From: a virus
Direction: 5' to 3' (one strand)
Virus record (IMG/VR): IMGVR_UViG_3300047334_000054
Location: 1-23,700 of that record
Length of the DNA: 23,700 nucleotides
Made by a program: the position numbers and the translations under genes. Under the pieces are notes generated by a model that saw only the letters and a program-made list of their open reading frames with translations, searched no databases and was not told the DNA's origin. Below are positions 642 through 21,760 of the stretch, piece after piece (the stretch's first letter is position 1; each line of letters begins with the position of its first letter).

Positions 642-1015
642 GCAATGAAAGCAGACCAGGCGCACCGCCCGCCAGCGTGCTGCACCCAGACGAGCTGTTG
701 CGCTTGCGCTTGCTACGGGCACTCGAGGAAGTTGGTGATTGTCTACGCTCGTTGTCATGGGTTCTCATTCAAGGCATCCGCGAAGACAACGCGGCGCACC
801 GTGGCAGTATCGCGGTGGGCCTCGAGCGTGCGGCCGTGCTGTGCCGGGGTGGGCCCTATAACTTTGCTGCCGCCGACCCACCACCCGCCCCAAAAACGGA
901 AAATCAAGCGCCGCCAGGCGATTTTGCAGCGCTGGCGGCACCCGTGGTGCCCGTAAGCCCTGCGGAGGCCCTGGCGCGTGCTGGAATTGCGTCTGCGCCA
1001 AAGACTGAAAACTAA
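638..1015 (+). CDS. hypothetical protein, 125 aa
   Basis: I do not recognise this protein. It starts with GTG inside the stop of the SSB gene (GTGA overlap), so its translation is probably coupled. The N-terminal half (to about residue 75) is predicted helical, with a Leu/Arg-rich stretch (LLRLRLLRALEEVGDCLRSL). The C-terminal half is Pro/Ala-rich and carries the peptide APKTEN twice, once internally and once as the last six residues. The position between SSB and the RecA-like gene suggests a small replication or recombination accessory factor, which is inference from context only. No signal peptide or membrane segment is visible. Confidence 0.6.
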   Translation: MSNESRPGAPPASVLHPDELLRLRLLRALEEVGDCLRSLSWVLIQGIREDNAAHRGSIAVGLERAAVLCRGGPYNFAAADPPPAPKTENQAPPGDFAALAAPVVPVSPAEALARAGIASAPKTEN

Positions 1016-7076: not shown

Positions 7077-8008
7077 AATGCTTGGACCAATCACTCACTA
7101 AGGATTACGCCCTCTACCAGGGCGATTGCGTGTCAGTGCTGCGCCAGCTACCCGCCGGTTGCGTCGACTTCTCGATCTACTCCCCTCCCTTCGCTAACCT
7201 GTTCATCTATTCGGACAGCATGGCAGACATGGGCAACGCCACGTCGGATAGCGAGTTCTTCGATCATTATGGGTATCTCGTGGCTGAGCTCACGCGGTTG
7301 CTCCGCCCCGGCCGCTTGATCGCGGTTCATTGCTCCGACTTGCCTTACGTCAAGTGGCGGGACGGTCGCATCGGTATCAAGGATTTCAGTGGTATGCTGA
7401 TCCGCGCGCACGAAGCGCATGGGCATACCCTGCATTCCCGTGTAACGCTTTGGAAGTCGCCGGTCACAGAGATGCAGCGCAACAAATCCATCGGATTGCT
7501 CTACAAGCAACTTCGCAAGGATAGCATCAAAAGCCGGCAAGGGTTCCCCGACTACCTATTGGTGTTCCGCGTGCCAGGGGAAAACGATAAGCCTGTTACA
7601 CACACGCCGGAGAGCTTCCCCTTGGCACAATGGCAGGAGTGGGCGTCCCCCGTATGGACCACTATCGATTGGTACAACACGCTAAACCGGGAGTTGGCGC
7701 GCGAGGAGTCAGACGAACGCCACATCGCGCCGCTCCAACTAGACCTAATAGAGCGCGCATTGGTCCTATGGTCCACGCGGGGGGATACAGTGCTCTCACC
7801 CTTCGCGGGTATAGGGTCCGAGGGCTACGTCAGCGTCCAACAAAAGCGTAGGTTTATCGGCACAGAACTGAAGCAATCCTACTACCGCGAGGCTTGCAAG
7901 TTTCTCGCCCGTGCTGTGACGGCGGGTAGTGCCGGGTCGCTACTAGACCTCGATACGCAAGCGCCCCCGAAGCTCACGAAGCCAACGCTCAAGAGGACCG
8001 CAACATGA
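7067..8008 (+). CDS. site-specific DNA methyltransferase (N4-cytosine or N6-adenine type)
   Basis: S-adenosylmethionine-dependent amino-methyltransferase of the beta order: catalytic motif IV SPPF (39-42) precedes the SAM-binding motif I, FAGIGSEG at 246-253, followed by FIGTELKQSYYREA. YALYQGDCVSVLRQLP near the N-terminus is typical of phage and restriction-associated enzymes. SPPF is more often seen in N4-cytosine enzymes than DPPY, so N4-methylcytosine is my preferred guess. The ATG overlaps the helicase stop by ten bases. Modification of phage DNA to escape host restriction is the usual role. No cognate restriction enzyme is next to it, so it looks like an orphan. The target site cannot be read from the sequence. 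Confidence 0.85.
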   Translation: MAVECLDQSLTKDYALYQGDCVSVLRQLPAGCVDFSIYSPPFANLFIYSDSMADMGNATSDSEFFDHYGYLVAELTRLLRPGRLIAVHCSDLPYVKWRDGRIGIKDFSGMLIRAHEAHGHTLHSRVTLWKSPVTEMQRNKSIGLLYKQLRKDSIKSRQGFPDYLLVFRVPGENDKPVTHTPESFPLAQWQEWASPVWTTIDWYNTLNRELAREESDERHIAPLQLDLIERALVLWSTRGDTVLSPFAGIGSEGYVSVQQKRRFIGTELKQSYYREACKFLARAVTAGSAGSLLDLDTQAPPKLTKPTLKRTAT

Positions 8009-8469
8009 TCACCGCCGAACGCTACCACGACATCTCTTGTGGCCACCGGGTTTACGGGCATGAGAACGCTTGTGCGGGGCTGCATGGCCACAACTACCGG
8101 GTAACTTTCACGCTTGGTAGTATCGCGGGAGACCTGGACACTATTGGTCGCGTAATTGACTTCAGCATCATCAAAAGCAAGCTGTGCATGTGGTTGGAGG
8201 ACAACTGGGATCACAAGTTCCTCTTGTGGGAGAAAGATCCGCTCTACGGACGCATGAGCCTGCTGCTGCGCGAGGGCTACCCCGGTGATCCCACGGACCC
8301 GCTGACACAGTCCTTGATCGGCGTGCCGTTCAATCCCACGGCAGAAAACATGGCGAACCACCTGATGTATATCATCGGACCGCAGCAGCTCCTCGGCACG
8401 GGTGCTGGGTTGCAATCCGTGCGCGTGGAGGAAACGCGCAAATGCAGCGCGACCGTAACCAAGTTCTAG
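8005..8469 (+). CDS. queD: QueD-like 6-carboxytetrahydropterin synthase
   Basis: T-fold enzyme that converts dihydroneopterin triphosphate to 6-carboxy-5,6,7,8-tetrahydropterin, the first dedicated step toward 7-deazaguanines. The zinc ligands His14, His27 and His29 (GHRV, LHGHNY) and the catalytic Cys23 are in place. Further family marks are VIDFS (50-54), the WDHKFL dyad (Asp69-His70), PTAENMA (111-117) with Glu114, and VRVEET (139-144), whose first Glu is the usual substrate anchor. Its 154 residues are slightly more than E. coli QueD because of an insertion around 75-105. The ATG overlaps the methyltransferase stop (ATGA). With QueE next door, a role in DNA base modification is likely. 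Confidence 0.88.
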   Translation: MITAERYHDISCGHRVYGHENACAGLHGHNYRVTFTLGSIAGDLDTIGRVIDFSIIKSKLCMWLEDNWDHKFLLWEKDPLYGRMSLLLREGYPGDPTDPLTQSLIGVPFNPTAENMANHLMYIIGPQQLLGTGAGLQSVRVEETRKCSATVTKF

Positions 8470-8478
8470 GAGGACACC

Positions 8479-9162
8479 ATGCACGGCAAGAACCTAATAG
8501 TAGGTCGGCGCAAGCTCGAGCAGGGCTACGCGATACACTCCATATTCAAAACCATACAAGGAGAAGGGCCGTGGGCCGGATGGCCGGCGCTGTTCGTGCG
8601 GTTTGCTGAGTGCAATCTGCGTTGCTACTTTTGCGATACGAATTTCGATACAACAGTCATTCTAAGCCTGCAAGAGCTTGTCGCCACCATCTGCGCCAGT
8701 CAAGCGAAGCGCGTGGTGCTGACGGGCGGTGAGCCCATGCTGCAAGCCCTGCCCGAGTTGCTTATGGCAAACACGCAAGCCATCTTCCAAATCGAAACCG
8801 CCGGCACCGTCTGGCCGGAGGGTATGGAAGACGTTCCTTACGACAAAGCACCTGTGATTGTGTGCTCGCCAAAGACCCCGGCTGTGCATCCGCGTATCGA
8901 GGAGCGCGTAGTATTTTGGAAATACATCATTCGCGCTGGCGAACTTGGTGACGACGGCCTGCCCAACAAATCAACGCAAATTGTTGGGCAGGCCGCGCGT
9001 ATATTTCGATCGGAGCGAAAATACTCCGTGATCTACGTGCAGCCCTGCGACGAGGACGACCCAACAGCCAACGCAGCTAACTTGCAGGCCGCCGTCACAA
9101 GTTCGATGGTCCACGGCTATAGGCTGTCACTTCAGCTGCACAAGATTGCGGGCCTCCCGTGA
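8479..9162 (+). CDS. queE: QueE-like 7-carboxy-7-deazaguanine synthase (radical SAM)
   Basis: Radical-SAM enzyme that contracts the ring of the QueD product to give 7-carboxy-7-deazaguanine. The cluster motif C-x3-C-x2-C is Cys45, Cys49 and Cys52 (ECNLRCYFC), preceded by the family sequence TIQGEGPWAGWPALFVRFA and followed by TGGEP (82-86), which contacts SAM. Its 227 residues match the family. The start has a strong AGGAGG site at 8468-8473. It acts in series with QueD upstream. QueC, FolE and a transglycosylase such as DpdA, which would complete and insert the base, are not in this window; they may lie elsewhere or come from the host. Confidence 0.9.
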   Translation: MHGKNLIVGRRKLEQGYAIHSIFKTIQGEGPWAGWPALFVRFAECNLRCYFCDTNFDTTVILSLQELVATICASQAKRVVLTGGEPMLQALPELLMANTQAIFQIETAGTVWPEGMEDVPYDKAPVIVCSPKTPAVHPRIEERVVFWKYIIRAGELGDDGLPNKSTQIVGQAARIFRSERKYSVIYVQPCDEDDPTANAANLQAAVTSSMVHGYRLSLQLHKIAGLP

Positions 9163-12105: not shown

Positions 12106-12113
12106 ATTTTATG

Positions 12114-12131
12114 GCTTGCTCTTTCGCAAGC
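12114..12131 (+). other. small inverted repeat after the helicase gene
   Basis: GCTTGC (12114-12119) and GCAAGC (12126-12131) form a six-base-pair stem with loop TCTTTC, nine bases after the helicase stop. No T-run follows, so it is not a standard intrinsic terminator. It overlaps the candidate -35 box of the next gene, so it could be an operator or an mRNA stabiliser. Function unknown. Confidence 0.35.
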
Positions 12132-12144
12132 TGGCCCCTATATA
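12116..12144 (+). promoter_or_regulatory. possible promoter for the two small downstream genes
   Basis: TTGCTC at 12116-12121 and TATATA at 12139-12144 are separated by 17 bases. The match is 3/6 and 4/6 to sigma-70 boxes, so it is weak. The position is right: this 84-base gap is the only sizeable non-coding gap in the + operon, and it sits before the small gene and the MarR-like gene. Read-through from upstream is equally possible. Confidence 0.25.
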
Positions 12145-12189
12145 TGGGGTTGTGGCCGGGTGGTCCGGTCGGACAGCAGGAGACGGGAC

Positions 12190-12417
12190 ATGGTTCTTCG
12201 GAACGCCTTAGACCTCTCGAAAAACCTGACCCGTTTCGAGCAGATTCTCGTGGAGTTGGACGCCGTGCAAGCGGCGGACACAGAATACAAGACCGCGTTT
12301 AGCACGGGCAGCAAGGCCCGGTTGCATCGCGGTGAGACGTGGCGCGGGCGCTTGATCGCGCTGGTCGCATACCAGCAGTCCAAGCAGATTTTTGAGGACA
12401 AATCACTAAATGAGTGA
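12190..12417 (+). CDS. hypothetical protein, 75 aa
   Basis: I do not recognise this small, charged, mostly helical protein. The ATG at 12190 was chosen because GCAGGAGA at 12176-12183 is a near-consensus ribosome site seven bases upstream; the longer frame from GTG at 12160 would place that site inside the coding region. There is no signal peptide, membrane segment or metal motif. Its end overlaps the MarR-like gene by eight bases, so the two are probably co-expressed; it might be a partner or modulator of that regulator, but nothing in the sequence shows this. Confidence 0.6.
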   Translation: MVLRNALDLSKNLTRFEQILVELDAVQAADTEYKTAFSTGSKARLHRGETWRGRLIALVAYQQSKQIFEDKSLNE

Positions 12418-12724
12418 CCTAGCTGAGACGCTGCTCCGAGTCGTGCGCTACGGCGACAACGCCAGCGCGCGACTCACCGTGCGGCAGCTCTACATCGTGG
12501 TTGCTTGCGCCGAGCAGGGGCCGCAAGCACCCGTCCATCTAGCCGCTGTGATGGACATCAACCCAAGCGTGATCAGCCGGGCGGTCGACAAGCTGGTTGC
12601 TACCGGCTGGCTGCGTCGCGTCATGGGACACCCCTCTGACGGGTCCGCTCACGGCACGCTGGTTGAGCTGACCACGGCCGGGTTCGCCTACCTCGCTGGC
12701 ATGGGGCTGTTACCCGGCAGCTAA
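12410..12724 (+). CDS. MarR-like winged helix-turn-helix regulator
   Basis: A 104-aa DNA-binding protein. The sequence LTVRQLYIVVACAEQG followed by VHLAAVMDINPSVISRAVDKL and an ATGWLRR wing matches the MarR-type winged helix: helix 1, the helix-turn-helix with recognition helix PSVISRAVDKL (about 50-60), then the wing around residues 65-85. It is shorter than typical MarR proteins (about 140), lacking most of the dimerisation helices. It closes the + operon and faces the - strand operon, so a role in switching early to late expression is plausible but inferred. GAGGAC near 12393 is a loosely spaced ribosome site. The stop codon lies inside the 91-bp repeat. Confidence 0.65.
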   Translation: MSDLAETLLRVVRYGDNASARLTVRQLYIVVACAEQGPQAPVHLAAVMDINPSVISRAVDKLVATGWLRRVMGHPSDGSAHGTLVELTTAGFAYLAGMGLLPGS

Positions 12725-12808
12725 AAACGGCTTTTCAAGCACCGCCAGGCCGTTTTAGAGGTGGAGCTGGGGGTATAGTAGCGGCCAGCGGCCAAACTGG
12801 CCTGGCGG
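12718..12808. repeat. 91-bp dispersed repeat, copy 1
   Basis: This is the first of two 91-base copies (the other at 20064-20154), in the same orientation, 86/91 identical; all five differences are transitions. It starts at the end of the MarR-like gene and covers its stop codon. The left part (AAAACGGC, 17-base loop, GCCGTTTT) is a terminator-like hairpin in both directions. A second pairing, CCGCCAGGCC (12743-12752) with GGCCTGGCGG (12799-12808), is conserved, but the flanks of this stem are degraded compared with copy 2. It lies where the two operons converge. Confidence 0.9.
12721..12758 (+). terminator. bidirectional intrinsic terminator candidate
   Basis: CTAAAAACGGC (12721-12731) pairs with GCCGTTTTAG (12749-12758): eight contiguous base pairs plus two more across a one-base bulge, with a 17-base loop. 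A-rich on one side and T-rich on the other, it could stop transcripts from both directions. It sits exactly at the stop of the + operon. The long loop and the short T-run make strength uncertain. Confidence 0.5.
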
Positions 12809-12824
12809 CCTCCGTGGGAGCGCG

Positions 12825-12878
12825 AAAAAATCCGCCGACGATTATGGTTGGCAAGACTATTCAAGCCAGTCCGGCGGA
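12825..12878 (-). terminator. possible intrinsic terminator of the - strand operon
   Basis: On the - strand TCCGCCG (at 12872-12878, inside the last codons of the 109-aa gene) can pair with CGGCGGA (12831-12837), followed directly by six T. The loop is long (34 bases) but contains smaller pairings (GACT with AGTC). The T-run and location just past the last - strand gene fit a terminator. The pairing with coding sequence is unusual. Confidence 0.35.
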
Positions 12879-13183
12879 ATGTCTGGTAGCTCCACCGTTT
12901 TCCCGCGCAGATCGTGATGGCAATCGCCGCAAAACTCGATCTTTCCAGCGCGAATAAAGTAGTGACACCGGAGCTTTGGAAAATTTGCGGCAACATTCAC
13001 AGACGGCGCGAATGTCGGAGCCTGAGCATTGCCGTCAAACGTCCACTGTGCTCCGTTCTTGAACGGCTGCTTGACAGCGATTTGATGCGTGTTCTCGCAT
13101 CCAGGGCACCAGTGTTCATGCAGAGAACGAAGCGGCCCGTAATGCCGAAGAACGAGCTTAGAACTCAGAACTTCGGTTGCCAT
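12857..13183 (-). CDS. DUF6527-like Cys-containing phage protein
   Basis: Small protein (108 aa from 13183; 109 from the adjacent ATG at 13186) of a family common in phages and often labelled DUF6527. Seen features are WCPGCENTHQI near residue 26, WTFDGNAQAPTFAPSV in the middle, RCHYFIRAGKIEFCGDCHHDL, and a final VELPDIP. The CPGC pair and the later CGDC pair could bind zinc. The function of the family is unknown to me. The start lies in the 44-bp junction repeat, with GGGGA seven bases before the second ATG. It is the last gene of the - strand operon. Confidence 0.72.
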   Translation of the reverse strand: MATEVLSSKLVLRHYGPLRSLHEHWCPGCENTHQIAVKQPFKNGAQWTFDGNAQAPTFAPSVNVAANFPKLRCHYFIRAGKIEFCGDCHHDLRGKTVELPDIPPDWLE

Positions 13184-13225
13184 CATGGATTCCCCGAGAT
13201 ATGCCCCGGCGGCGCCGGATCGCTC
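13182..13225 (-). repeat. 44-bp stop/start junction repeat, copy A
   Basis: This 44-base sequence matches 13511-13554 at 43 positions; the single difference is a transition next to the start codon. Read on the - strand it encodes the last residues of one gene (SDPAPPGHISGNP), supplies a GGGGA ribosome site, the TGA stop, and an overlapping ATG for the next gene. It also contains a small hairpin, CCGGC-GCC-GCCGG. Confidence 0.95.
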
Positions 13226-13512
13226 CCCAGCGCCGCGCTGCCGTTCATCATAGCCTGACTCGATCCAGAGTAACCGATTTTGCGCAGCGGCCGGTCATGG
13301 AATCGCTCGTCCTCCGGCGTCCAGTAAACCTTTCCGCACTGCCACCACACATCGTCGCCCACAGACGGGATTTCCCCGTCTAAATCCACATAGACCCCGC
13401 ACTCGTCTCCGATGCCAGCACGGTTTCCGAAACCGTCATACAAGCGCTCGGCGCACCAGAGGCAAGTTCGTTCACCGCGAACAGACACGAAGATTACAAC
13501 GCCGCCAATCAT
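13183..13512 (-). CDS. hypothetical Cys-rich protein with shared C-terminal peptide
   Basis: 109-aa protein I do not recognise. The N-terminal hydrophobic start (MIGGVVIFVSV) is too short for a clear signal peptide. Cysteines appear as CLWC, in GDECG and in WWQCGKVYWTPEDERFHDRP, so a small zinc-binding fold is possible. The final 13 residues SDPAPPGHISGNP are identical to the end of the upstream beta-helix protein although the rest is unrelated. The ATG at 13512 is preferred because GGGGA lies about seven bases upstream; GTG at 13515 is an alternative that overlaps the upstream stop. Unknown function. Confidence 0.62.
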   Translation of the reverse strand: MIGGVVIFVSVRGERTCLWCAERLYDGFGNRAGIGDECGVYVDLDGEIPSVGDDVWWQCGKVYWTPEDERFHDRPLRKIGYSGSSQAMMNGSAALGSDPAPPGHISGNP

Positions 13513-13554
13513 CACGGATTCCCCGAGATATGCCCCGGCGGCGCCGGATCGCTC
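13511..13554 (-). repeat. 44-bp stop/start junction repeat, copy B
   Basis: Second copy of the repeat at 13182-13225. It ends the beta-helix gene and opens the 109-aa gene; here the base before TGATG gives GTGATG instead of ATGATG. The two copies are 329 bases apart, and the sequence between them is the complete 109-aa gene, so each such gene with its junction looks like a cassette unit. Confidence 0.95.
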
Positions 13555-14807
13555 ACGAACACCGCGCCGGCCGCCGGCGAGGTCGCCAGCCCGGTCATCG
13601 TGCCGCCGCCGCTTACGCCGATGCTGGCTCCGTTGCCGGTCCAGGCCAGCGTGTTCGTGCTATCGAACGCGACATTTTCGTTCGCTGCGACCATGACCGA
13701 CGAGTTGAAACGCCCGACGTATAGGTGCGCCCCTGACCACGCCATGCTGTTGGTTGTGGGCACGATGCCTTCCTCGCCAAAGCCGATGACGTTCTCACCC
13801 GGCGTGGATGCGGTGACATCGTAGACGCCTCCGGTCACTGTCACCACGCCGCCGTTCGCGGCGTCGATCCAGCGACCGCCGCCATTGTTGGCATTGTAGC
13901 CACCTGTCACTGTGGTGGTCAGGGTCCGGGTCTTGATCTGGTTTCCGTACGTGTTGCCGTAGAAATTGGAGTTGTTGACGATCAAAGCGGCGCCGGTGGC
14001 GTAGATGTCGTGGCTCAGGCCATCGAGGCTCTGGCCGTTGTTCACGAAATCGCAGGATTCGACGTCCAACGTCACGTTCTGGCCGGGGCCGCCGAACACC
14101 GCCGGCGAGTAGGGCGGCGAGAACACCCCGTCGTCGCTGTGCTCAATCAGCAGATGGTCTAGCACCAGCGTGCCGGGTGCGGCGAAGTTCTCCGCGTAGA
14201 CGCCGGCCTCGCCGCTACCACCGCCGCCGCTCGCCGGGCCGCCGCAGTTTTTCAGCACGAGGCCGTAGACGTGGCCTGGCGACTGGGCGTGGATGCAACC
14301 CTTGCCCCACGCCAGCCGGTGTCCGGCGGCGATGCCGCCCTGCCCGTCAATGCTCTCCTTGCCGTCCGCTTGGCCGAGGATGGTCCAGCCGTCGAGTCCG
14401 ACGGGAATATCGAACGGCACGAGGTCGGCGGTGCCGGCCAGCACCGTCATGGTAAATCCCTTGGCCATGCAGGGGATCGCCGACGCCATCTCGGTGAATG
14501 TCTGGCCGGGACCAACCGTCACGGTCGCAAGCGGCGTCGCCGGGCAGGTAGCAGGCGGCGGTGTGACAACGGCAGACTGCGGAAGCGCCTTGATGGCCGC
14601 CAGCACGGCGGCGAACTGCGCGTCCATGTCGGTCTTGAGCGCGGTGATGGCGGCGGCGTTGCTGGCGGCCGTGGCCGCAGGGACGACTACAGCAGCGGTG
14701 GCGGGCTTGGTGACCGCGACCGTGGAGGTGATCATGGTTGCGGGCGCAGCGGCGTGCGCCAGCAGCGGTGTAAGGGCTACGCCAGCAAGTAGAATGATGC
14801 GAAGCAT
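13512..14807 (-). CDS. exported right-handed beta-helix protein
   Basis: 431-aa protein with a signal peptide (MLRIILLAGVALTPLLAHAA, cleavage near residue 20). An Ala-rich helical stretch follows (about 25-85), then a long region of short beta-strand repeats with Asn, Gly and Val periodicity (LVLDHLLIEHSDDGVFS, VESCDFVNNGQSLDG, ALIVNNSNFYGNTYGNQI), typical of pectate-lyase-like beta-helices. Such folds often bind or cleave polysaccharide; catalytic residues cannot be assigned. The start at 14807 was chosen because CTCC at 14815-14818 is a GGAG ribosome site and because it overlaps the stop upstream; the longer frame to 14915 would bury the signal. Export is unusual for a virion-type beta-helix. 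Confidence 0.7.
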   Translation of the reverse strand: MLRIILLAGVALTPLLAHAAAPATMITSTVAVTKPATAAVVVPAATAASNAAAITALKTDMDAQFAAVLAAIKALPQSAVVTPPPATCPATPLATVTVGPGQTFTEMASAIPCMAKGFTMTVLAGTADLVPFDIPVGLDGWTILGQADGKESIDGQGGIAAGHRLAWGKGCIHAQSPGHVYGLVLKNCGGPASGGGGSGEAGVYAENFAAPGTLVLDHLLIEHSDDGVFSPPYSPAVFGGPGQNVTLDVESCDFVNNGQSLDGLSHDIYATGAALIVNNSNFYGNTYGNQIKTRTLTTTVTGGYNANNGGGRWIDAANGGVVTVTGGVYDVTASTPGENVIGFGEEGIVPTTNSMAWSGAHLYVGRFNSSVMVAANENVAFDSTNTLAWTGNGASIGVSGGGTMTGLATSPAAGAVFVSDPAPPGHISGNP

Positions 14808-14983
14808 CAGATCACTCCAAAGAACCACAGCAGAAGAAAAACAAGCAGGACGGCGCCGAGACCGACACCACCCCGCCCGTAGTGCGTGAAGCCTGGACCA
14901 CCCCATTGACCCCACCCGACTCCGGCGCCGCCGAATATCAGCAGCAGCACAAGAATCAAAATGATTACACTGATGGGGCTCAT
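14807..14983 (-). CDS. tiny two-helix membrane protein, DUF3309-like
   Basis: A 58-aa gene found by reading the gap between its neighbours. It has two membrane segments: VIILILVLLLIF at residues 6-17 and AVLLVFLLLWFFGVI at 44-58, joined by a Gly/Trp-rich loop (GWGQWGGPGF, YGRGGVGLG). This layout resembles DUF3309 small membrane proteins of proteobacteria. The TGA stop shares one base with the downstream beta-helix ATG (TGATG), showing coupling. No function is known to me; a membrane-disturbing or holin-like role is possible since the gene is in the lysis block. Confidence 0.65.
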   Translation of the reverse strand: MSPISVIILILVLLLIFGGAGVGWGQWGGPGFTHYGRGGVGLGAVLLVFLLLWFFGVI

Positions 14984-14994
14984 TGGTTTATTCC

Positions 14995-15768
14995 CTACCC
15001 GATTGCAGCGCGCAAGGCTTGGCCGACAGACGCAAGCTGAGTCCAGTTGATCGACATGGGATCGAGGCCGTTACCGCGAATTGCGTCATGATTCAGCGGC
15101 ACAACACCACCGACCATGTATTTTTCGACGAACGCTTTCGTGGCCAGCAGTTCCTTGCCCCACGAGACAAAACGAACCAGACCGGTGTCGTTATTGTAGA
15201 ATAGCCCCTTGGTCTCGTGGCCGCCCCACACACCGCCATCGTCGGCCACCACGTCCCAAACCTCTTGTGATTGGCAGGAGACCGGCAAGCTCCAACTGAT
15301 ACCGCAGTCACCAGCCCACGCCAGGGCGTCGACAAGATCGTCCCACGCGCCGGCACGGATGCCGGCAGCGCCAGCCAGCTTGTTGTGAGTGCCGTTGCCG
15401 AGATCGACGCCGGTATTCAACCAGTAGTCGATCGCAATACCTGGCTCGGTGCCCTGATCCGTGGTTGGCTCATTCGGGTTGAAACCCGTAATCGCGGAAT
15501 ACAGTGACAGAGTCTGCACCGTATTGGCGACGTATGGTACGGCCTGGCTCCAACGCGTCATGGCCGTGATGCTGTGCATCATGAACGCTGGATAACAGTC
15601 ACCATACGTGTCGTTGCCCAGCATACCCCAGCCGGTCTCGCGCACACCGTAGCCGCCGACTTGTGCTGGTGTGGGCAAGTTCGGCAGCACCTCGGACAGC
15701 AACGGCAACTTGGGCAAGCCGGGCCGGTTGTCTTTCCGACCTAGCTTAAACTGTGAATGGTCCGGCAT
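14995..15768 (-). CDS. papain-like cysteine-peptidase-type protein
   Basis: 257-aa protein of a family I have seen in phages and bacteria, with GWGMLGNDTYGDCYPAFMMHSI at the front. The likely nucleophile is Cys58 (GDC) and the likely base His184 (GGVWGGHETKG). The segment LVRFVSWGKELLATKAFVEKY (198-217) resembles the strand after the catalytic His in papain-like folds. A papain-type Asn is not evident, so activity is uncertain. There is no signal peptide. The ATG shares one base with the upstream lipoprotein stop (TGATG). Context with envelope proteins suggests a peptidoglycan-, host- or virion-directed hydrolase, by inference. Confidence 0.55.
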   Translation of the reverse strand: MPDHSQFKLGRKDNRPGLPKLPLLSEVLPNLPTPAQVGGYGVRETGWGMLGNDTYGDCYPAFMMHSITAMTRWSQAVPYVANTVQTLSLYSAITGFNPNEPTTDQGTEPGIAIDYWLNTGVDLGNGTHNKLAGAAGIRAGAWDDLVDALAWAGDCGISWSLPVSCQSQEVWDVVADDGGVWGGHETKGLFYNNDTGLVRFVSWGKELLATKAFVEKYMVGGVVPLNHDAIRGNGLDPMSINWTQLASVGQALRAAIG

Positions 15769-16253
15769 CAGCGCGCTGCCAGCAAAACCGCACGCGCTTG
15801 GGCAGCGGTCATGGTGTTTGCTGCGGCGGACGGGGTGGCCAGCAGGCCGACGCCGACTTCAATAATCGGCAGTAGCACGCTGACGGCAGTGATGATCTTC
15901 TGCAACGTCGCCGGCAGCGTGAACCCTGCCAAGGCGGTTTCCAGCGCGCTGAAGTCCGAAGCGATTTGCGTCACGATCGGTGCGCCTGTCGCCTGACTGG
16001 TGGCGACCGCGAACGCCGCTGCGGCAGCAACGATCTGCTCCACTTCCGTTGCAACGGCACCGACTGCGGCGGCGTTCACGCCAAGGGCGGCTTGCAGTGC
16101 CGGGAGCTGGGCGTCAAGCGACTGCGCAACCAGATCGACGTCCGCTGTGATTTGCGCGGCGATTTGCGCAACGGTGGTTGTGCCACACGCGGACAGCACG
16201 GCCAGCATCGGAAGTGCGAGGAAAGTAGTGCGCAGGAGGTTACGACGATTCAT
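15768..16253 (-). CDS. phage lipoprotein, Ala-rich
   Basis: 161-aa protein with a lipoprotein signal: MNRRNLLRT, hydrophobic core FLALPMLAVL, lipobox LSAC with Cys23. The N-terminal RRNLL could also be read as a twin-arginine signal. The mature part is Ala/Val-rich and helical with a hydrophobic stretch near residues 120-139 (ITAVSVLLPIIEVGVGLLA) that may cross or associate with a membrane. It follows the 44-aa lipoprotein, overlapping its end by four bases (ATGA). It may be a spanin-like or superinfection-exclusion lipoprotein, but no family was recognised. Confidence 0.65.
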   Translation of the reverse strand: MNRRNLLRTTFLALPMLAVLSACGTTTVAQIAAQITADVDLVAQSLDAQLPALQAALGVNAAAVGAVATEVEQIVAAAAAFAVATSQATGAPIVTQIASDFSALETALAGFTLPATLQKIITAVSVLLPIIEVGVGLLATPSAAANTMTAAQARAVLLAAR

Positions 16254-16384
16254 TTTTGATCTCCGTAGGGAGGTTGCTGCATGTCCGATGCGGCGACGGT
16301 CTGCACGTATTTATCAACGCGCCGGAGAAATGCGCAACCGGCTACAACTCCGGCCAGCAGCACGACCAGCGCGATGCGAATCAT
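16250..16384 (-). CDS. very small lipoprotein, spanin-like candidate
   Basis: 44-aa gene found by reading the gap. MIRIALVVLLAGVVAGC is a complete lipoprotein signal with lipobox VAGC (Cys17), leaving 28 mature residues ending QQPPYGDQK. It overlaps both neighbours by four bases (ATGA on each side), which strongly supports a real gene. Small Pro-containing lipoproteins next to endolysin and holin genes are often outer-membrane spanins (Rz1-like), but this one is shorter than lambda Rz1 (60 aa) and its inner-membrane partner is not clear. It could also simply be an inner-membrane peptide. Confidence 0.6.
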   Translation of the reverse strand: MIRIALVVLLAGVVAGCAFLRRVDKYVQTVAASDMQQPPYGDQK

Positions 16385-16809
16385 GGTGTTGTAGTTGTGG
16401 TCTCCGTAGTGGTATGCGCTGTCTGTGGTGCAGGTGCTGGCAACGCGTGAGTGCTCTTGTCCAGCAGCGTGCCGAGTTCACCAGTGACCATGCGGTCGAT
16501 GTGATCCGGTGTGATGTTGAGTCGCTTCAATGCGTCGGGCGCGGCGGAGATCAGATACTGCGCACCCTCGGCCACCGCTTGGTCATGTGTGACGAAGCCG
16601 AGGTTGGTGATGCGTCCGGCTAGTGCTGAGTTTGCGATGCCGCCAGCGCGACCGAGCGCGCGATCCACGGTTGTTTGATCCACGAACTTTTGCAAGACCG
16701 GCCAATGCGCGAACGCGAACGCGACCAGTGTGCTTGCTGCCGCAGTCAGCGCCGCATACATGAGCGGTTGTAGGACAGTCACAAGCGGCGTCAGGTCAAC
16801 GTGCTGCAT
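16381..16809 (-). CDS. membrane protein, holin candidate (LL-H-like)
   Basis: 142-aa protein with one clear membrane segment near the N-terminus (LMYAALTAAASTLVAFAFAHW, about 16-36). A helical region follows with QKFVDQTTVDRALGRAGGIANSAL and EGAQYLISAAPDALKRL, then a Pro/Thr-rich tail. One TM plus an amphipathic soluble domain is the layout of LL-H-family holins, and the position next to the endolysin supports it. Without alignment this stays a candidate. TAGGAA lies seven bases before the ATG. Its stop overlaps the small lipoprotein start (ATGA). Confidence 0.5.
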   Translation of the reverse strand: MQHVDLTPLVTVLQPLMYAALTAAASTLVAFAFAHWPVLQKFVDQTTVDRALGRAGGIANSALAGRITNLGFVTHDQAVAEGAQYLISAAPDALKRLNITPDHIDRMVTGELGTLLDKSTHALPAPAPQTAHTTTETTTTTP

Positions 16810-16818
16810 AGTGTGTTC

Positions 16819-17343
16819 CTAGTTAGACGCGAATTGAGAACTTGCTGCCACCACATACATCAAGCGACGTATCCAACCCTTGCCGTCCGTGGGCCATTGC
16901 TTGTCAGAGCGGTATTGTTCGTCACGTAGCCGGGCAAACTCCGCATGTAGCGTAGGAATGTTGGTGCTGGCCGCACTAAGCGTCTCAGGGCCAATAACGC
17001 CGTCATCCGCAACACCTACGGCACGCTGGAACGCTGGAATAGACCAGCCGCGACCATGATTTACAGCGGCATCAAACAGCAAACCGGCGAGCATGGGGTG
17101 GAGCTGATCCCCGCTAATCGGGTTGTAGAAGTCCCGCAAGTAAATTGTTTGTGCGTCCGTCAGCGTTAGATTTTGAATGTCGAGGATTGGGTATGATGCA
17201 GCGGAAATCCCAAACTTGGTGCCCACCAGTTTACCAACACCGACAGCACCACCTGTCCAGTTACCTGAGTCGCCGGAACTGCGGTCAAACGGACCCTCTA
17301 CTCCGACCGTCAGCGCAAAACACTGGTCGAATACAGAAGACAC
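16819..17343 (-). CDS. endolysin, GH108-type muramidase with C-terminal peptidoglycan-binding domain
   Basis: Cell-wall hydrolase, 174 aa. The N-terminal part has the GH108 pattern FDQCFALTVGVEGPFD, where Glu16 is the expected catalytic acid (usually in HEGG), then GTKFGIS (41-47). The C-terminal part LRDFYNPISGDQLHPMLAGLLFDAAVNHG and FQRAVGVADDGVIGPETL matches the peptidoglycan-binding domain common to this family. There is no signal peptide, so it needs a holin for release, and the candidate lies downstream. It begins with GTG sharing one base with the upstream stop; no strong ribosome site is visible, suggesting coupling. Replacement of the usual HEGG by VEGP is a divergence. Confidence 0.85.
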   Translation of the reverse strand: MSSVFDQCFALTVGVEGPFDRSSGDSGNWTGGAVGVGKLVGTKFGISAASYPILDIQNLTLTDAQTIYLRDFYNPISGDQLHPMLAGLLFDAAVNHGRGWSIPAFQRAVGVADDGVIGPETLSAASTNIPTLHAEFARLRDEQYRSDKQWPTDGKGWIRRLMYVVAASSQFASN

Positions 17344-17897
17344 TACTTGCTCACGGGAACGGGAATTATCGTCAGCGGGCCAGGTGGTTCCACTACGACA
17401 CGCGCGGACGACACGGTCTTAGGGTCTTCTATTACAACCGGCACGTCCTTGGTCTCGATCGGTGAGGGCTGCAAGAACCACGGCGTAAGCGGACAGCTCC
17501 AGGTTGCGCGCAGCACGTAACCCCATGTCCCGATCCCAATGTTCTCCGGAATGTCTAGCGAGTTGATATAGTGGTCGAGTCCGGGAGGAACAAGCGCCTT
17601 AGGTGGCGACTGTAGGGGAACGATGATTAGTTCACGCTTGCCGTTGCGAACCTCATACCGGCGCAATCCCTGGTCAACACGGCGATCGCAAGTGTAGTGC
17701 TGTTCTTTCTTGACATAGATTTCCAAGCGGCCACCGCGAAACGTGACTGCGTCCGCGTCGCGGATATCAATGAGTTTGACTGGCGGGGTGCGCGTTGAAT
17801 CAAACAGAAGCGTGGAGCAGAGCGCTCCCACTACTGCCGAGACCAGAATCAAGCGCCACCTGAGATGCGCGATCAAACCGGCTTCTTGCAAGGTCAC
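17343..17897 (-). CDS. membrane-anchored protein of unknown function
   Basis: 184-aa protein with one N-terminal membrane segment (LILVSAVVGALCSTLLF, about 16-32) and a large outside domain with CDRRVDQG and SCPLTP cysteines and a Pro-rich tail (EPPGPLTIIPVPVSK). The topology is type II, so the domain would face the periplasm. The GTG at 17897 is chosen: it overlaps the upstream stop (GTGA), and GGAGG lies about nine bases before it; the longer frame to 17939 would run 46 bases into its neighbour. The position before the endolysin suggests a lysis-related role, for example an inner-membrane spanin, but no long coiled coil is seen. Confidence 0.55.
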   Translation of the reverse strand: MTLQEAGLIAHLRWRLILVSAVVGALCSTLLFDSTRTPPVKLIDIRDADAVTFRGGRLEIYVKKEQHYTCDRRVDQGLRRYEVRNGKRELIIVPLQSPPKALVPPGLDHYINSLDIPENIGIGTWGYVLRATWSCPLTPWFLQPSPIETKDVPVVIEDPKTVSSARVVVEPPGPLTIIPVPVSK

Positions 17898-18280
17898 GGC
17901 GTGATCCCTCCGTGACCTGTCAGCACGGACCAGACCCATTGTGCTTTAGTTATGATGATGGTCAACACGGCGCTAGTTATTCCAGCAGCAGCGGCTACCC
18001 ATATAGCTTGCTTGCGCCCCCGCCAATCCTTTGCGCGATTTTCTTCATCGCTGGCTTTCTTGGCCCTCACCTCACGCACCCAGCGGAGGTCGGCCCGCAG
18101 TTGCCCGATGGATTCGCTTTCAAAGATGTCAACAAGACCCGCTTCCAGTTCCATGCGCCCAAAATCGGAAACGCGTTGCGCGCGTGCAGCTCTTGTCACA
18201 AGATGTCGAAGTGCTGGCCCTGTATCCTCCTCCTCCGGCACGTCTGGAATATCTTCCATTATAGCGCAGTTATCCAACAC
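17894..18280 (-). CDS. C-terminal-anchored membrane protein in the lysis block
   Basis: 128-aa protein: acidic N-terminus (MEDIPDVPEEED), helical charged middle with a likely coiled coil (IGQLRADLRWVREVRAKK), and a C-terminal membrane segment (IWVAAAAGITSAVLTIIIT, about 98-116). The start is GTG at 18280, because CTCC at 18289-18292 gives GGAG eight bases upstream; the ATG at 18259 lacks a ribosome site, and the frame to 18352 begins with Cys-rich sequence unlike a leader. The layout resembles small phage membrane proteins beside endolysins; it might serve as a second holin or antiholin. I recognise no family. Confidence 0.5.
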   Translation of the reverse strand: MLDNCAIMEDIPDVPEEEDTGPALRHLVTRAARAQRVSDFGRMELEAGLVDIFESESIGQLRADLRWVREVRAKKASDEENRAKDWRGRKQAIWVAAAAGITSAVLTIIITKAQWVWSVLTGHGGITP

Positions 18281-18313
18281 GGCTGCATCTCCGGCGAAAT
18301 CACAAGAGGCCCC

Positions 18314-18333
18314 TATGCTGGTTGCTCCCAGCA
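18314..18333 (-). promoter_or_regulatory. inverted repeat in the leader of the lysis block
   Basis: ATGCTGG and CCAGCAT form a seven-base-pair perfect stem around a six-base loop, about 34-53 bases before the GTG start at 18280. No T-run follows. It could be an operator or an mRNA hairpin that controls the lysis genes. Confidence 0.35.
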
Positions 18334-18363
18334 TAACACACGTAACACACACCCTAGCGTAAA

Positions 18364-18409
18364 TTGTGCGTTAATAACAGGGCCTTGTGCGTAACAAAGC
18401 CTTGTGCGT
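18364..18409 (-). promoter_or_regulatory. three ACGCACAA direct repeats, possible promoter of lysis block
   Basis: The octamer TTGTGCGT (ACGCACAA on the - strand) occurs at 18364-18371, 18385-18392 and 18402-18409. Two copies share GGCCTTGTGCGT-like or AGCCTTGTGCGT-like flanks. Between them lies a weak - strand promoter: TTGTTA (18392-18397), a 15-base spacer, and an extended -10 TGTTATTAA (18371-18379). This 131-base gap (18281-18411) is one of only two sizeable gaps in the - strand block, so a control region for the lysis genes is plausible. Confidence 0.3.
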
Positions 18410-18411
18410 CG

Positions 18412-18735
18412 CTACGAGTAGTAGCTGATATCCAAAATTGCTCCTGCAGCCTGTTGGATGAACTGCACAATACTCAGCGGACCTGAGTATTGAAGCTGGC
18501 TGCCGGACGCAACAGGAACACCCACGGTTGCAGTCGGTGCCGTGCCGTCGTCTCGGTAACGCACACCAGCGCCGCCCACGCTGATAAAAGCAACTGTCGC
18601 ACCCGTGGGCGGCGTCAAATACGTCGCAGCGCTCAGCGACGTAATCTGCTGGTAGCCTTGCGGAGTGTAGGAATAAGGCGAAATCTCAACGGGTATAGCA
18701 CCTGATCCCGCGTTCTGTTGGTTGGGGTAGCTCAT
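18412..18735 (-). CDS. small phage structural-type protein
   Basis: 107-aa protein with a beta-rich core: ATYLTPPTGATVAFISV, VRYRDDGTAPTATVGVPV, LQYSGPLSIVQFIQQ and a final ILDISYYS. This arrangement (YRDDGTxPT and a YxG segment before the last strand) resembles small proteins that occur among phage tail or head decoration genes; I cannot name the family. The ATG at 18735 is preferred to the upstream in-frame codon because GGAGCG lies eight bases upstream and the longer frame overlaps the previous gene. It is separated from that gene by two bases. Confidence 0.6.
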   Translation of the reverse strand: MSYPNQQNAGSGAIPVEISPYSYTPQGYQQITSLSAATYLTPPTGATVAFISVGGAGVRYRDDGTAPTATVGVPVASGSQLQYSGPLSIVQFIQQAAGAILDISYYS

Positions 18736-18737
18736 GG

Positions 18738-19376
18738 TTAAGCGCTCCAATCGTAGTCGATTGCGGACAAACTCGAATAAGGTGTGTAGGGTATCAACCC
18801 CAGCGCGATCTCGATCTGTGTAATACCCGTCTGTGTGATCAGAGCAGGGGTCACTGTGATCGCCGTGCCTGTAGTAGCGGACACTCCGTAAGCACCAACG
18901 CGCGTTGTGGTGACGACGCCCGCACCGAGACTACGCGCACCTATTGCTGTAGATGCCGGGTTGCCAGCACCGACGCGCAGGCCGGTGAGATAGCTGATGA
19001 GTATTCCGACGTCGATGCCGCTGCTTCCAGGCAGCGCAGCGCCTGGATTCCCAGCACCTATACGCAGCTTCTGTAGAACGCCCGCTCCAACGCCGCTGCT
19101 TCCAGGAGTCGCTGCGCCTGGATTCCCAGCACCTATACGCAGCTTTAATCCGACTGCTGCGCCGATGCCGCTGCTTCCAGGCAGCGCAGCGCCTGGATTC
19201 CCAGCACCTATACGCAGCTTCTGTAGAACGCCCGCTCCAACGCCGCTGCTTCCAGGAGTCGCTGCACCTGGATTCCCAGCACCTATACGCAGCTTCTGTA
19301 GAACGCCCGCTCCAACGCCGCTGCTTCCAGGAGTCGCTGCGCCTGGATTCCCCGCGCCGATGCTTAGATTGGCCAC
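18738..19376 (-). CDS. tandem-repeat tail-associated protein
   Basis: 212-aa protein made mostly of five 25-residue units (residues 4-128) of the form LRIGAGNPGAATPGSSGVGA, ending GVLQK, plus a degenerate sixth (LRVGAGNPASTAIGARSLGA). The last ~55 residues (ITVTPALITQTGITQIEIAL, DYDWSA) are not repetitive and may be the anchor. The Gly/Ala/Pro/Asn-rich units suggest a fibrous or beta-roll shaft. The gene starts with GTG and lacks a good ribosome site, so it may be coupled to the upstream gene. Position among tail genes supports a virion accessory role; no family recognised. Confidence 0.6.
   Translation of the reverse strand: MANLSIGAGNPGAATPGSSGVGAGVLQKLRIGAGNPGAATPGSSGVGAGVLQKLRIGAGNPGAALPGSSGIGAAVGLKLRIGAGNPGAATPGSSGVGAGVLQKLRIGAGNPGAALPGSSGIDVGILISYLTGLRVGAGNPASTAIGARSLGAGVVTTTRVGAYGVSATTGTAITVTPALITQTGITQIEIALGLIPYTPYSSLSAIDYDWSA
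18993..19367 (-). repeat. five tandem 75-bp repeats
   Basis: Five in-frame units of exactly 75 bases lie end to end; the landmark CTGCTTCCAG on the + strand recurs at 19021, 19096, 19171, 19246 and 19321. Units 1, 2 and 4 encode nearly the same sequence (ATPGSSGVGAGVLQK), while units 3 and 5 share the ALPGSSGI form and then differ. The near-identity in DNA, not just protein, points to recent duplication or slippage. Confidence 0.95.
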
Positions 19377-19389
19377 GAGGTCACACTAG

Positions 19390-20031
19390 CTAGTTCTGTA
19401 TGAACACGAGTGATCCGTTGGGCACTGTCAGCGTCGACGCAGCAGACAGAGTCCACGCGAATGACGACGTGATCGTGACGGTCAGCCCGCTACCCGTCGT
19501 CCCGCCGCCTGACGTAGCAGCGGGCGAAGATGGCACACCACCGATCACGTACTGATTGCTGTTCGCCAACGCGACTCCGGTCACAGCACCGCCAGAGACC
19601 GTAGAAATAGTCACCTGCGCCGCGCTGAAACCGGTCTGCACCGTCCCACCAGAAACTGTCACGGTCCTTCCGACGTCCCCTGACACGTATCCGGTTCCGC
19701 CCGAGGCGACCGCGACTGCCGTGACCTGCGCGTCGAGACCTGTCGTGAAATACAGGTTGCCGGCGGTCACAGCGTCCCACAGCGCGCAGTAGTTCACAGC
19801 CGGCCACGCACCACCCGACGTCGACGTGAACACGATGTCTGCCGTCGAGTTGAACATGCTGTTCGCGACGTTCCCCATCGGGGCGGATTGGCGCGCGTAA
19901 CCGGGGGCTGTGCCGGAGGTCAGCTCGTTGTTTCCGGTCAAGCCCGGTGCGCCCGTGTGGAGCGACAAGAAAAGCGTTTTGCCGGCGACAAACGTGAGAA
20001 TCGCGTTTGCGCCAGCGGTTCCGGTTGCCAT
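19390..20031 (-). CDS. tail protein, gp80-like, with inserted beta domain
   Basis: 213-aa protein. The front (KTLFLSLHTGAPGLTG, GYARQSAPMG, VNYCALWDAVTAGNLYFTTGL) and the end (FAWTLSAASTLTVPNGSLVF) match the short phage tail proteins that are often about 130 aa. Between them, residues ~104-190 form an inserted Ser/Gly/Thr-rich beta segment that contains GGTGYVSGDVGRTVTVSGGT. AGAGGAGG about eight bases before the ATG is a very strong ribosome site, in keeping with a late structural gene. It follows the 91-bp repeat copy 2 on the - strand. Expected role is at the distal tail or fibre. Confidence 0.65.
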   Translation of the reverse strand: MATGTAGANAILTFVAGKTLFLSLHTGAPGLTGNNELTSGTAPGYARQSAPMGNVANSMFNSTADIVFTSTSGGAWPAVNYCALWDAVTAGNLYFTTGLDAQVTAVAVASGGTGYVSGDVGRTVTVSGGTVQTGFSAAQVTISTVSGGAVTGVALANSNQYVIGGVPSSPAATSGGGTTGSGLTVTITSSFAWTLSAASTLTVPNGSLVFIQN

Positions 20032-20063
20032 GGCTTAGCCTCCTCTGTGGTAGTAGCACGCAC

Positions 20064-20154
20064 CAGCTAAAAACGGCTTTTCAAGCACCGCCAGGCCGTT
20101 TTAGAGGTGGAGCTGGGGATGTAGTAGCGGCCAGTGGCTAAACCGGCCTGGCGG
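20064..20154. repeat. 91-bp dispersed repeat, copy 2
   Basis: Second copy of the element at 12718-12808. Here it fills most of the 130-base gap between the tail fibre gene and the gp80-like gene, starting a few bases after the fibre stop. The outer stem is much better preserved than in copy 1: GCACCGCCAGGCCGTTTTAG (20085-20104) pairs with 20138-20157 at 19 of 20 positions around a 33-base loop. The terminator-like hairpin (20067-20077 with 20095-20104) shares one arm with this stem, so the two cannot form together. Confidence 0.92.
20067..20104 (-). terminator. intrinsic terminator or attenuator candidate after the tail fibre gene
   Basis: Read on the - strand, AAAACGGC, a 17-base loop and GCCGTTTTT form a stem with a T-rich 3' side, about 58 bases past the fibre stop. 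Transcription must continue to reach the next - strand tail and lysis genes unless they have their own promoter, so partial termination is more likely than a full stop. The upstream 20-bp stem may act as antiterminator. Confidence 0.45.
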
Positions 20155-20161
20155 TGCGCGC

Positions 20162-21760
20162 TTACCACTCGATTATGACCAAGCCGCCCGCGCCGTTACC
20201 GCCGCTGAAGGGGGTTGTAAACCCTGCGTTCGTTCCCGCGCCGTTGCCGCCACAGCCATAGTTCGCGCCATTGTTGCCGGCCGTGCCGACGTTTCCGGCT
20301 CCGACGACGCCGGGGAACCCGAAGCCCGGCGGCCCACCAGGGCCGCCACTCCAGAAGCCCCCGTAAAACTGATAGATGAGGCCACCGTTCTGCCCCGCTA
20401 CGTTCAGCACACCGCCCGACGCGGACCCGCCGTTGGCCGTAAAGACTGCGCCGTTTCCGAGACCGCCGAGTCCTTGCCCGGCGCTGAACGCACCAAACAC
20501 GGAGGTCCCGCCGTTACCGCCGTTACCGCCCCCTGACCCCCCGGAGCCCCCACCCCCGACGACACCAGAGTAAGTCGCGCCAGCGGTTACACTGGCCCAG
20601 CCCTCGACGTAGCCCCCACCACCACCACCACCGCCGGGACCACTCGAACCAGACGCACCACCACCACCACCGCCACCAAACAAGCGAACTTTGAACTGCG
20701 ATACGCCTGCGGGAACTGTTACCGAGAAACTGCCGGGAATGTTGTAGATCGCCATTCCGTGCGTGAACTGGAACGCGATCGCGCCTAGCGGTGTGCTATC
20801 AACTTGCGCCAGAAGCTGGGAGCCACTCCACCCGATCATCGTCTGGTTAGCCAACATCCCAGCGCCGGTGCCACTCTGTGTCAGGGCGGTTTGCGAGAGA
20901 AGCTGAATGTTTGAGCCGTCAAAGACGAACTCATAAATCAAACCACCGACGAGGGTATTCGGGTAAAGCGCGTTTCCCCCCCTGGCGACGACGCGCGTGG
21001 TGCCATTCAAATTCATAGTCGTCGCGCCGGTATTCGTAGAAACAATGCGAACCAAGAAAGGCTGTCCGATAGCCAAGTAGTTCATCGTTGGAATGTTTAC
21101 GACGATATTGTTGGTTGAGCCGGTATCTGTTCCAAAATAGATTCCGCCAATCGGTGGAATCGTTTGAAGCTGGTATGTGGAGCCGTTGTAGATAACCTCG
21201 TAGACACCGCCGCTTTGAAGCTGGCCGCCGACCAGGGAATAAGCCGCTGGTGTGTTGAGGTTTACAGCACCAAACCCGTTGACGTTTAGCGTCACCGCGC
21301 CTGTATTCGTTGCAATGGCTTGGAAACGAATCGGCATACCCGTCAAAGCGGACAAGCTACCTGGCCCAATCGGCAGCGTAAGAACAATGGTATTCGCCGT
21401 GCCCGAAGCCACCACGTAGTTATCAGCCTGGATCTGTAGTTGCTGGCGCTGAATCATTGTGGCCGCTTGACCCATCGTCCACAACAGCTGGACATTATCA
21501 CCAGCGGACCAAGTCAGCGCCGTTGTGCCCTCCTGCGCACGGACGATTGTGAAGGTGTCGCCGGACACCGCCGTCACCCACACAATCTCGAGAAGCAACC
21601 CCGTAGCAGCGTCAGTCAAGCAGACCACGAAATACTGACCAGTTGAGGGGTTGGGGAACAACGCGCCCCCACCACTGGCCAGCGCTAGTGACGTTGTCGA
21701 GCTTGATATGGAGCCCGCCAGCGTGGACGCTGCGAGGTTTTTGAAGATCAGCAAGCTCAT
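20162..21760 (-). CDS. tail fibre protein with glycine-rich distal domain
   Basis: 532-aa protein. Residues 1-110 (ALFPNPSTGQYFVVCLTD, TFTIVRAQEGT) are the attachment region seen in many phage fibres. Residues 110-330 contain repeated beta units (GAVTLNVNGFGAVNL, GATTMNLNGTTRVVARGGNAL). The C-terminal ~180 residues (from VTVPAGVSQFKVRLFGGGG) are a glycine-rich domain with GGGGGGGG runs ending in GAGGLVIIEW, a type known for receptor-binding tips. GGT-type codon runs at 20613-20637 and 20656-20679 may be prone to slippage. ATAGGAG lies eight bases before the ATG. Its role is host recognition, inferred from family architecture. Confidence 0.8.
   Translation of the reverse strand: MSLLIFKNLAASTLAGSISSSTTSLALASGGGALFPNPSTGQYFVVCLTDAATGLLLEIVWVTAVSGDTFTIVRAQEGTTALTWSAGDNVQLLWTMGQAATMIQRQQLQIQADNYVVASGTANTIVLTLPIGPGSLSALTGMPIRFQAIATNTGAVTLNVNGFGAVNLNTPAAYSLVGGQLQSGGVYEVIYNGSTYQLQTIPPIGGIYFGTDTGSTNNIVVNIPTMNYLAIGQPFLVRIVSTNTGATTMNLNGTTRVVARGGNALYPNTLVGGLIYEFVFDGSNIQLLSQTALTQSGTGAGMLANQTMIGWSGSQLLAQVDSTPLGAIAFQFTHGMAIYNIPGSFSVTVPAGVSQFKVRLFGGGGGGGASGSSGPGGGGGGGGYVEGWASVTAGATYSGVVGGGGSGGSGGGNGGNGGTSVFGAFSAGQGLGGLGNGAVFTANGGSASGGVLNVAGQNGGLIYQFYGGFWSGGPGGPPGFGFPGVVGAGNVGTAGNNGANYGCGGNGAGTNAGFTTPFSGGNGAGGLVIIEW

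Follow-up and report, generated by a model that had tools for sequence, protein, structure and literature searches.

A dispersed repeat of about 95 bp behind genes of a tailed-phage lineage, a candidate REP/MITE-like element

Two window copies and a family of seven

The window analysed here is a stretch of 23,700 nucleotides of viral DNA (IMG/VR record IMGVR_UViG_3300047334_000054, positions 1 to 23,700), and it carries two copies, W1 and W2, of an intergenic repeat. W1 lies where an operon on the plus strand, ending in a MarR-like winged-helix gene, converges with a late operon on the minus strand, ending in a DUF6527 gene. W2 separates a tail-fibre-like gene from the following minus-strand gene, which matches a PHROG head protein (coordinates in Table 1). 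As described in the initial annotation, both copies are 91 bp long, on the same strand and identical at 86 of 91 positions (E ~1e-36), far beyond chance. The five mismatches, read from the sequence, are transitions without exception. The same annotation had called both copies non-coding and placed both just past the stop of a minus-strand gene. Both statements hold for W2; the tail-fibre-like gene has its stop 7 bp away. For W1 the first holds only in part, as the first seven bases, CAGCTAA, overlap the end of the MarR-like gene, whose TAA stop (12722-12724) is contained in the copy. The second does not hold for W1. Its end is 48 bp from the stop of the minus-strand DUF6527 gene, and the stop that it truly abuts is that of the plus-strand gene.

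The window covers part of a single phage genome, which was extended by joining IMG/VR contigs that overlap at more than 99.9% identity. The composite measures at least 74.8 kb, and in it the coordinate X equals the window position plus 12876. The contigs used were 3300047178_000077 (G002), 3300047177_000012 (G003), 3300047329_000033 (G001), 3300047334_000042 (G007) and 3300047177_000015 (G004, with G005 and G006). The same repeat gene was reached at both ends of the composite, which makes a circular or permuted map probable. The carrier belongs to a tailed-phage lineage and is lytic-looking. Its rightward operon runs from about X71.5 kb across the composite end to 25.6 kb, and the leftward late operon runs from X71.0 to 25.7 kb (about 45 kb), with W1 at the meeting point of both.

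Search of the whole phage genome revealed five more copies, named A3, A4, B1, B2 and B3. The element is thus present twice within the window, as had been noted, but at least seven times in the phage. The seven copies are found in both orientations and are scattered across the genome of about 75 kb. Once the five outside copies are included, transversions, indels and a swapped arm appear among the differences. The unit measures about 91-97 bp and consists of a left arm and core, a linker, the tetranucleotide GTAG and a GC-rich, mostly palindromic stretch. The blocks CACCGCCA, GTTTT and CGGCC are invariant across the seven copies (alignment A1). Left arm and core together have the potential to form a hairpin, AAACGGC ... 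CACCGCCAG GCCGTTTT. The left arm occurs in two layouts: AAACGGC is followed by TTTTCAAG and then the core in W1, W2 and B3, with B1 as a variant, and TTCAAGCC is followed by AAACGGC and then the core in A3 and B2. The complementarity of AAACGGC with GCCGTTT is kept in both layouts and altered in A4 and B1. GTAG stands ahead of CGGCC in six of the seven copies, A4 being the exception. The palindromes of the right module are clean over 6-9 bp in W1, B2 and B3, and imperfect in W2, A3 and B1.

The copies are mosaic, with left and right halves exchanged between them. W1 and B2 are 94% identical across the right 71 nt and differ in the layout of the left arm. B3 has a left half as in W1 and W2 and a different right palindrome.

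Table 1. Copies of the repeat, their parts and adjoining features (X, composite coordinate; contig positions in brackets)
Feature	Window position	Composite position	Strand	Basis
Copy A4		X7915-8008 (G003:7915-8008)	-	
Copy W1, type I left arm, where two operons converge	12718-12808	X25594-25684	+	nhmmer 3.6e-32, included in model
Copy W2, type I left arm, between tail-fibre-like gene and next minus-strand gene	20064-20154	X32940-33030	+	nhmmer 8.7e-32, included in model
Copy A3		X42719-42812 (G002:403-496)	-	
Copy B1		X53754-53844 (G007:17152-17242)	+	
Copy B2		X66346-66439 (G007:29744-29837)	+	
Copy B3		X73225-73315 (G004:20105-20195)	-	
W1 core CACCGCCAGGCCGTTTT	12740-12756		+	alignment of seven copies
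W2 core CACCGCCAGGCCGTTTT	20086-20102		+	alignment of seven copies
W1 left arm AAACGGC	12725-12731		+	complementary to GCCGTTT at 12749-12755
W2 left arm AAACGGC	20071-20077		+	complementary to GCCGTTT at 20095-20101
W1 right module: GTAG, then GGCCAG...CTGGCC palindrome, REP-like layout	12778-12802		+	sequence
W2 right module: GTAG, then imperfect GGCCAG...CCGGCC palindrome	20124-20148		+	sequence
MarR-like winged-helix gene, final gene of plus-strand operon	12410-12724		+	PF12802 1.7e-8, PF01047 1e-7
DUF6527 gene, final gene of minus-strand late operon	12857-13186		-	PF20137 8.7e-14
Tail-fibre-like gene, stop 7 nt from W2	20162-21760		-	phrog_863 2e-21, phrog_8469 1.3e-19
Gene on opposite side of W2, PHROG head protein match	19390-20031		-	phrog_240 2.4e-12
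Weak core-like match AAAAACGGAAAATCAAGCGCCGCCAGGCGATTTT in Pro/Ala-rich tail of coding region 638-1015, possibly spurious	892-925		+	nhmmer E 7e-4

Distribution, junction sizes and placement

The element is private to this phage in all collections searched. Among viral contigs, the 17-base core was found only in contigs of the same phage, and a longer pattern gave the same result. Two patterns gave no match in 84,980 GTDB species genomes. The element was not found in plasmids, and phage records returned only two weak matches of 28 bases. Relatives were gathered by the large terminase and by the major capsid protein. No significant copy was detected by nhmmer in the 35 loci of the terminase group or the 77 loci of the capsid group, nor does any of the long relatives contain a dispersed family of intergenic repeats that would be comparable. 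Dispersed repeats do occur in relatives, namely a promoter-like set in G015 and short repeats in G052, neither of them comparable. Thus, the group as a whole does not conserve the element. A 17-mer of the right module, GTAGTAGCGGCCAGYGG, was found in 14 further viral contigs, and these were rejected as single matches without the core that look like chance.

The relatives allowed a comparison of junction size at A3, between the tail chaperone open reading frame (ORF) and the tape-measure gene. This gap measures 109-141 nt in 28 of 30 relatives and 173 nt in the other two. In the phage studied here it measures 224 nt. The gap is short in the relatives because the frameshifted extension of the chaperone reaches the tape-measure start: in all eight relatives inspected, the extension ends 0-4 nt from this start or overlaps it. 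In the studied phage the end of the extension is at X42815, and the stretch from there to the GTG start at 42707 is occupied by A3. The excess at the A3 junction, about 97-105 nt, corresponds to one element. As the relatives are too diverged for a base-level alignment of the junction, the evidence at A3 is one of size and layout.

Placement is closely tied to stop codons. When the ends of each copy were projected from the core, six of the seven proved to be no more than 7 nt away from a stop codon, namely that of a gene with its 3' end turned towards the copy. The gene-facing end is the right one in A4, B1, B2 and W2, and the left one in W1 and A3. The exception is B3, which lies between divergent genes. 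Such clustering has a probability of P ~2e-6 under random insertion across all intergenic space. When the null model was limited to short ancestral gaps, the values were 6e-5 (gaps up to 200 nt), 1e-4 (up to 150 nt) and 1.5e-3 (up to 100 nt). In part, the effect is expected of any insertion that spares genes and ribosome-binding sites in a compact genome. Orientation relative to transcription is the same in four of the five copies inside operons, which is not a significant bias. In the initial annotation, further copies always behind late genes, together with covariation, would have supported an RNA element. The position is largely as predicted (six of seven at a stop codon), but it is not limited to late genes, since A4 lies in the operon of replication genes and B3 between divergent genes.

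Interpretation of the element

The private distribution, the mosaic and dispersed copies, the element-sized excess, the placement at stop codons and the GTAG with its palindrome most likely add up to the picture known from GTAG repetitive extragenic palindromic (REP) sequences (PMC3733652, PMC8266576). Such REPs are found for the most part downstream of coding sequences, and an end of the repeat in many cases provides the stop codon (PMC3733652). We consider the element to be a small non-autonomous dispersed repeat of the REP type or of the type of miniature inverted-repeat transposable elements (MITEs), private to one phage lineage and inserted behind genes, with a probability slightly above one half (about 0.55). 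Of the two readings in the initial annotation, a duplicated mobile element such as a MITE or a conserved regulatory RNA, the former is partly supported by the two orientations, the mosaic copies and the excess relative to 30 relatives, and fares better than the latter.

According to the mobile-repeat reading, copies would have arrived by transposition or by template switching or recombination. Insertions would be tolerated only where no gene or ribosome-binding site is cut, which would leave copies exactly behind stop codons. Since no nuclease was found in the phage, mobilisation would need an enzyme supplied by the host, of the REP-type Y1/HUH class. Most copies would be transcribed with the preceding gene and add a hairpin just past its stop codon. 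By analogy with REP elements in bacteria, this 3' hairpin could shield the mRNA 3' end or promote its trimming, or it could terminate part of the transcripts.

The likeness to GTAG REPs and bacterial interspersed mosaic elements (BIMEs), which are mobilised by the REP-associated tyrosine transposase RAYT (TnpA-REP), extends to several features. GTAG beside a GC-rich, mostly palindromic stretch, as in REPs, is seen in six of the seven copies, in three of them with an imperfect palindrome. In both families the units are extragenic, mostly right behind genes, with ends that supply stop codons (here W1), and both have variant stems and a mosaic composition. In contrast to these, the repeat described here is phage-borne and has only seven copies, as opposed to a high copy number in a bacterial genome, and its unit of about 95 bp adds a left hairpin as well as a strictly invariant core that REPs lack. 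With bacterial MITEs it shares its short, non-coding and dispersed nature, the occurrence in both orientations and the element-sized excess at one junction.

A number of observations weigh against a mobile repeat of this kind. The GTAG units are not arranged as head-to-head dimers, and no Y1 transposase (PF01797) was found in the four contigs spanning the composite. Unlike in MITEs, no terminal inverted repeats (ends of W1, W2 and A3 compared), no recognised target-site duplication and no parent transposase were found. At A3, where the relatives cannot be aligned at base level, no clear target-site duplication was seen. A clear comparison with an empty site was obtained at one junction only. 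The junction of B1 behind the capsid gene is not decisive, because the gaps of the relatives vary there from 9 to more than 200 nt and often hold other hairpins. The palindromes of the right half are on average not more stable than shuffled sequences, where the right-module energies of B1 and B3 are not those of the intended segment, the anchor having been placed on an earlier GTAG. Divergence between copies is very uneven: some are 95% identical, others can hardly be aligned except in the core. Pure parasitism is opposed chiefly by the core itself. It is exact even in the strongly diverged A4. This speaks for selection acting on the core, hence for a role other than mobility, and a protein-binding site would be compatible with it.

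The alternative that the copies form a family of structured regulatory RNAs was addressed by folding. W1 and W2 alone fold better than shuffled sequences (z -2.2 to -3.75), but the energies of all seven copies are close to those of dinucleotide shuffles (mean z of -0.67 on one strand and -0.66 on the other), as are those of the left hairpin (mean z 0.13 and -0.14, two strands, seven copies). The hairpin common to most copies is mostly invariant, and its observed covariation was reached by 138 of 500 shuffles. The RNAalifold covariation term was unfavourable as well (+2.37), at the low power of seven paralogous copies. The same pair counting does detect covariation in another RNA behind the capsid gene of relatives, so that the negative result is not a failure of the tool. 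Rfam gave no match for the element, at gathering as well as at lax thresholds, and the copies lie on both strands relative to transcription. A structured RNA family, as proposed initially, is therefore largely refuted by the fold, covariation and Rfam tests, within the power that seven paralogous copies allow, and we consider it very unlikely.

Transcription terminators behind genes, bidirectional or attenuating, would explain why W1 lies at the convergence of two operons and B1 immediately after the gene for the major capsid protein, a place where hairpins occur in many relatives too. The stretch AAAACGGC...GCCGTTTT is also A-rich before and T-rich after on both strands. We nevertheless regard terminators as unlikely: no intrinsic terminator was called in either element region of the window, the stem has only four G-C pairs around a loop of 10-17 nt, and A4 and B1 are without most of it. 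Conservation is in sequence rather than in structure, with the loop more conserved than the stem. A sigma-70 promoter was also tried as a reading and rejected, with no matches in the element regions.

A cis-acting site of the phage transcription machinery is another candidate reading. The leftward late operon begins with a gene for a protein of the NusG/RfaH family (L024:6405-6893, minus strand; X70525-71013). Membership in this family is certain (NGN 4.9e-16, KOW 2.7e-8). Its top NCBIfam profile is RfaH with 78.6 bits, below the equivalog cut-off for RfaH. RfaH is recruited at ops DNA and LoaP at an RNA hairpin, and a comparable site could recruit the phage protein and keep RNA polymerase going over long operons. 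The core of all seven copies contains GGCGGTG, on the strand that most copies show to the transcript; this resembles the ops core GGCGGTAG and lies inside the potential hairpin. The exact core of A4, a copy otherwise diverged, would fit such a role, and as with ops and the dfn hairpin of LoaP there is a potential hairpin with a conserved loop in or before long operons, here in a phage that encodes a possible NusG-family specialist. However, GGCGGTAG occurs twice in the genome and in no copy, so that the shared GGCGGT is suggestive only. RfaH sites usually occur once, in a leader, whereas the copies follow stop codons along the operon and have both orientations, with A3 reversed within its operon and B3 between divergent genes. 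NusG/RfaH-like proteins are also encoded by some relatives and absent from most, and those relatives that encode one (G056, G038, G046, G012 and G009) have no comparable dispersed family. Recruitment is thus doubtful. Distributed antitermination, in which the factor made from the first late gene would be reloaded at sites at gene ends along the 45-kb operon, is an idea to which we give a low probability.

An operator dispersed over the genome, at which a repressor of phage or host or a nucleoid protein could act, would agree with a short, invariant core in dispersed intergenic places, and the MarR-like protein encoded beside W1 would be one candidate to bind it. Precedents are the stoperators of mycobacteriophages, which are bound by a repressor, and the 17-bp repeat of Cluster O phages such as Corndog, the function of which is not known. 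These, too, occur in a single phage group as many dispersed copies, frequently between genes. The Cluster O repeat, however, is a perfect palindrome of 17 bp whose arms do not vary, present 34 times in Corndog, compared with about 95 bp, seven copies, an invariant core and variable arms here. The units described here are five times longer than known stoperators, the GTAG module is also conserved, and orientation to transcription is mixed (A3 opposite, B3 divergent). No tyrosine integrase was found in the phage, so nothing points to a lysogenic state that would have to be maintained. An operator role is rather improbable.

REP-like repeats are familiar from bacterial chromosomes, and the papers on GTAG REPs that were consulted report none in phages. 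If the mobile-repeat reading is true, compact phage genomes, too, host such parasites or use them as 3'-end elements. The system is countable, with one species, seven copies and at least one junction for which the compact state is seen in 30 relatives. The conservation of the core far exceeds that of the other parts of the unit, so that a function can be tested directly.

Further features of the phage and its relatives

The weak core-like match at the left of the window (Table 1) is of doubtful membership as an eighth copy and may be a chance match or a fossil copy.

Other repeats were observed beside the family. A direct repeat of 58 bp, 91% identical, lies at window positions 13181-13238 and 13510-13567. 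It spans the start region of gene 13183-13515 and the end of gene 13512-14915, and the two ORFs share an identical protein tail, SDPAPPGHISGNP. A 54-bp repeat at X24982-25035 (window 12106-12159) and X73401-73453 (L024:9281-9333) contains TTGC-N17-TAT(A/G)TA and a GCTTGC..GCAAGC hairpin, and a related inverted copy was found at X73159-73183. This repeat is probably a phage promoter, separate from the element of about 95 bp.

Window genes 8005-8469 and 8479-9162 are QueD-like and QueE-like, as judged by sequence. The same phage has a QueC gene (PF06508 6.5e-53; region L021:2829-3611), and together they suggest a possible 7-deazaguanine modification of its DNA. At L021:8168-10696, a family A DNA polymerase (PF00476 1.9e-50) is fused to an N-terminal domain resembling uracil-DNA glycosylase (PF03167 1.9e-12).

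The RNA behind the capsid gene of relatives is conserved and has three helices. It lies around 10-190 nt behind the stop of the major capsid gene and was aligned from 13 relatives (L171:11076-11149; also L132, L141, L143, L147, L149, L152, L159, L163, L170, L172, L178 and L179). A closing stem of about CUGCGUC/GGCGCAG encloses a hairpin GCACG..CGUGC, the sequence UUCAAACUGU and a hairpin GGACG..CGUCC. Two-sided changes occur in four of the eight pairs of the closing stem, 97.4% of the cells are paired, and none of 500 shuffles reached its covariation. This RNA has no match in Rfam. In another relative, the same place behind the capsid gene is occupied by a known RNA, int-alpA (L122:11042-11108; RF02996, 43.8 bits).

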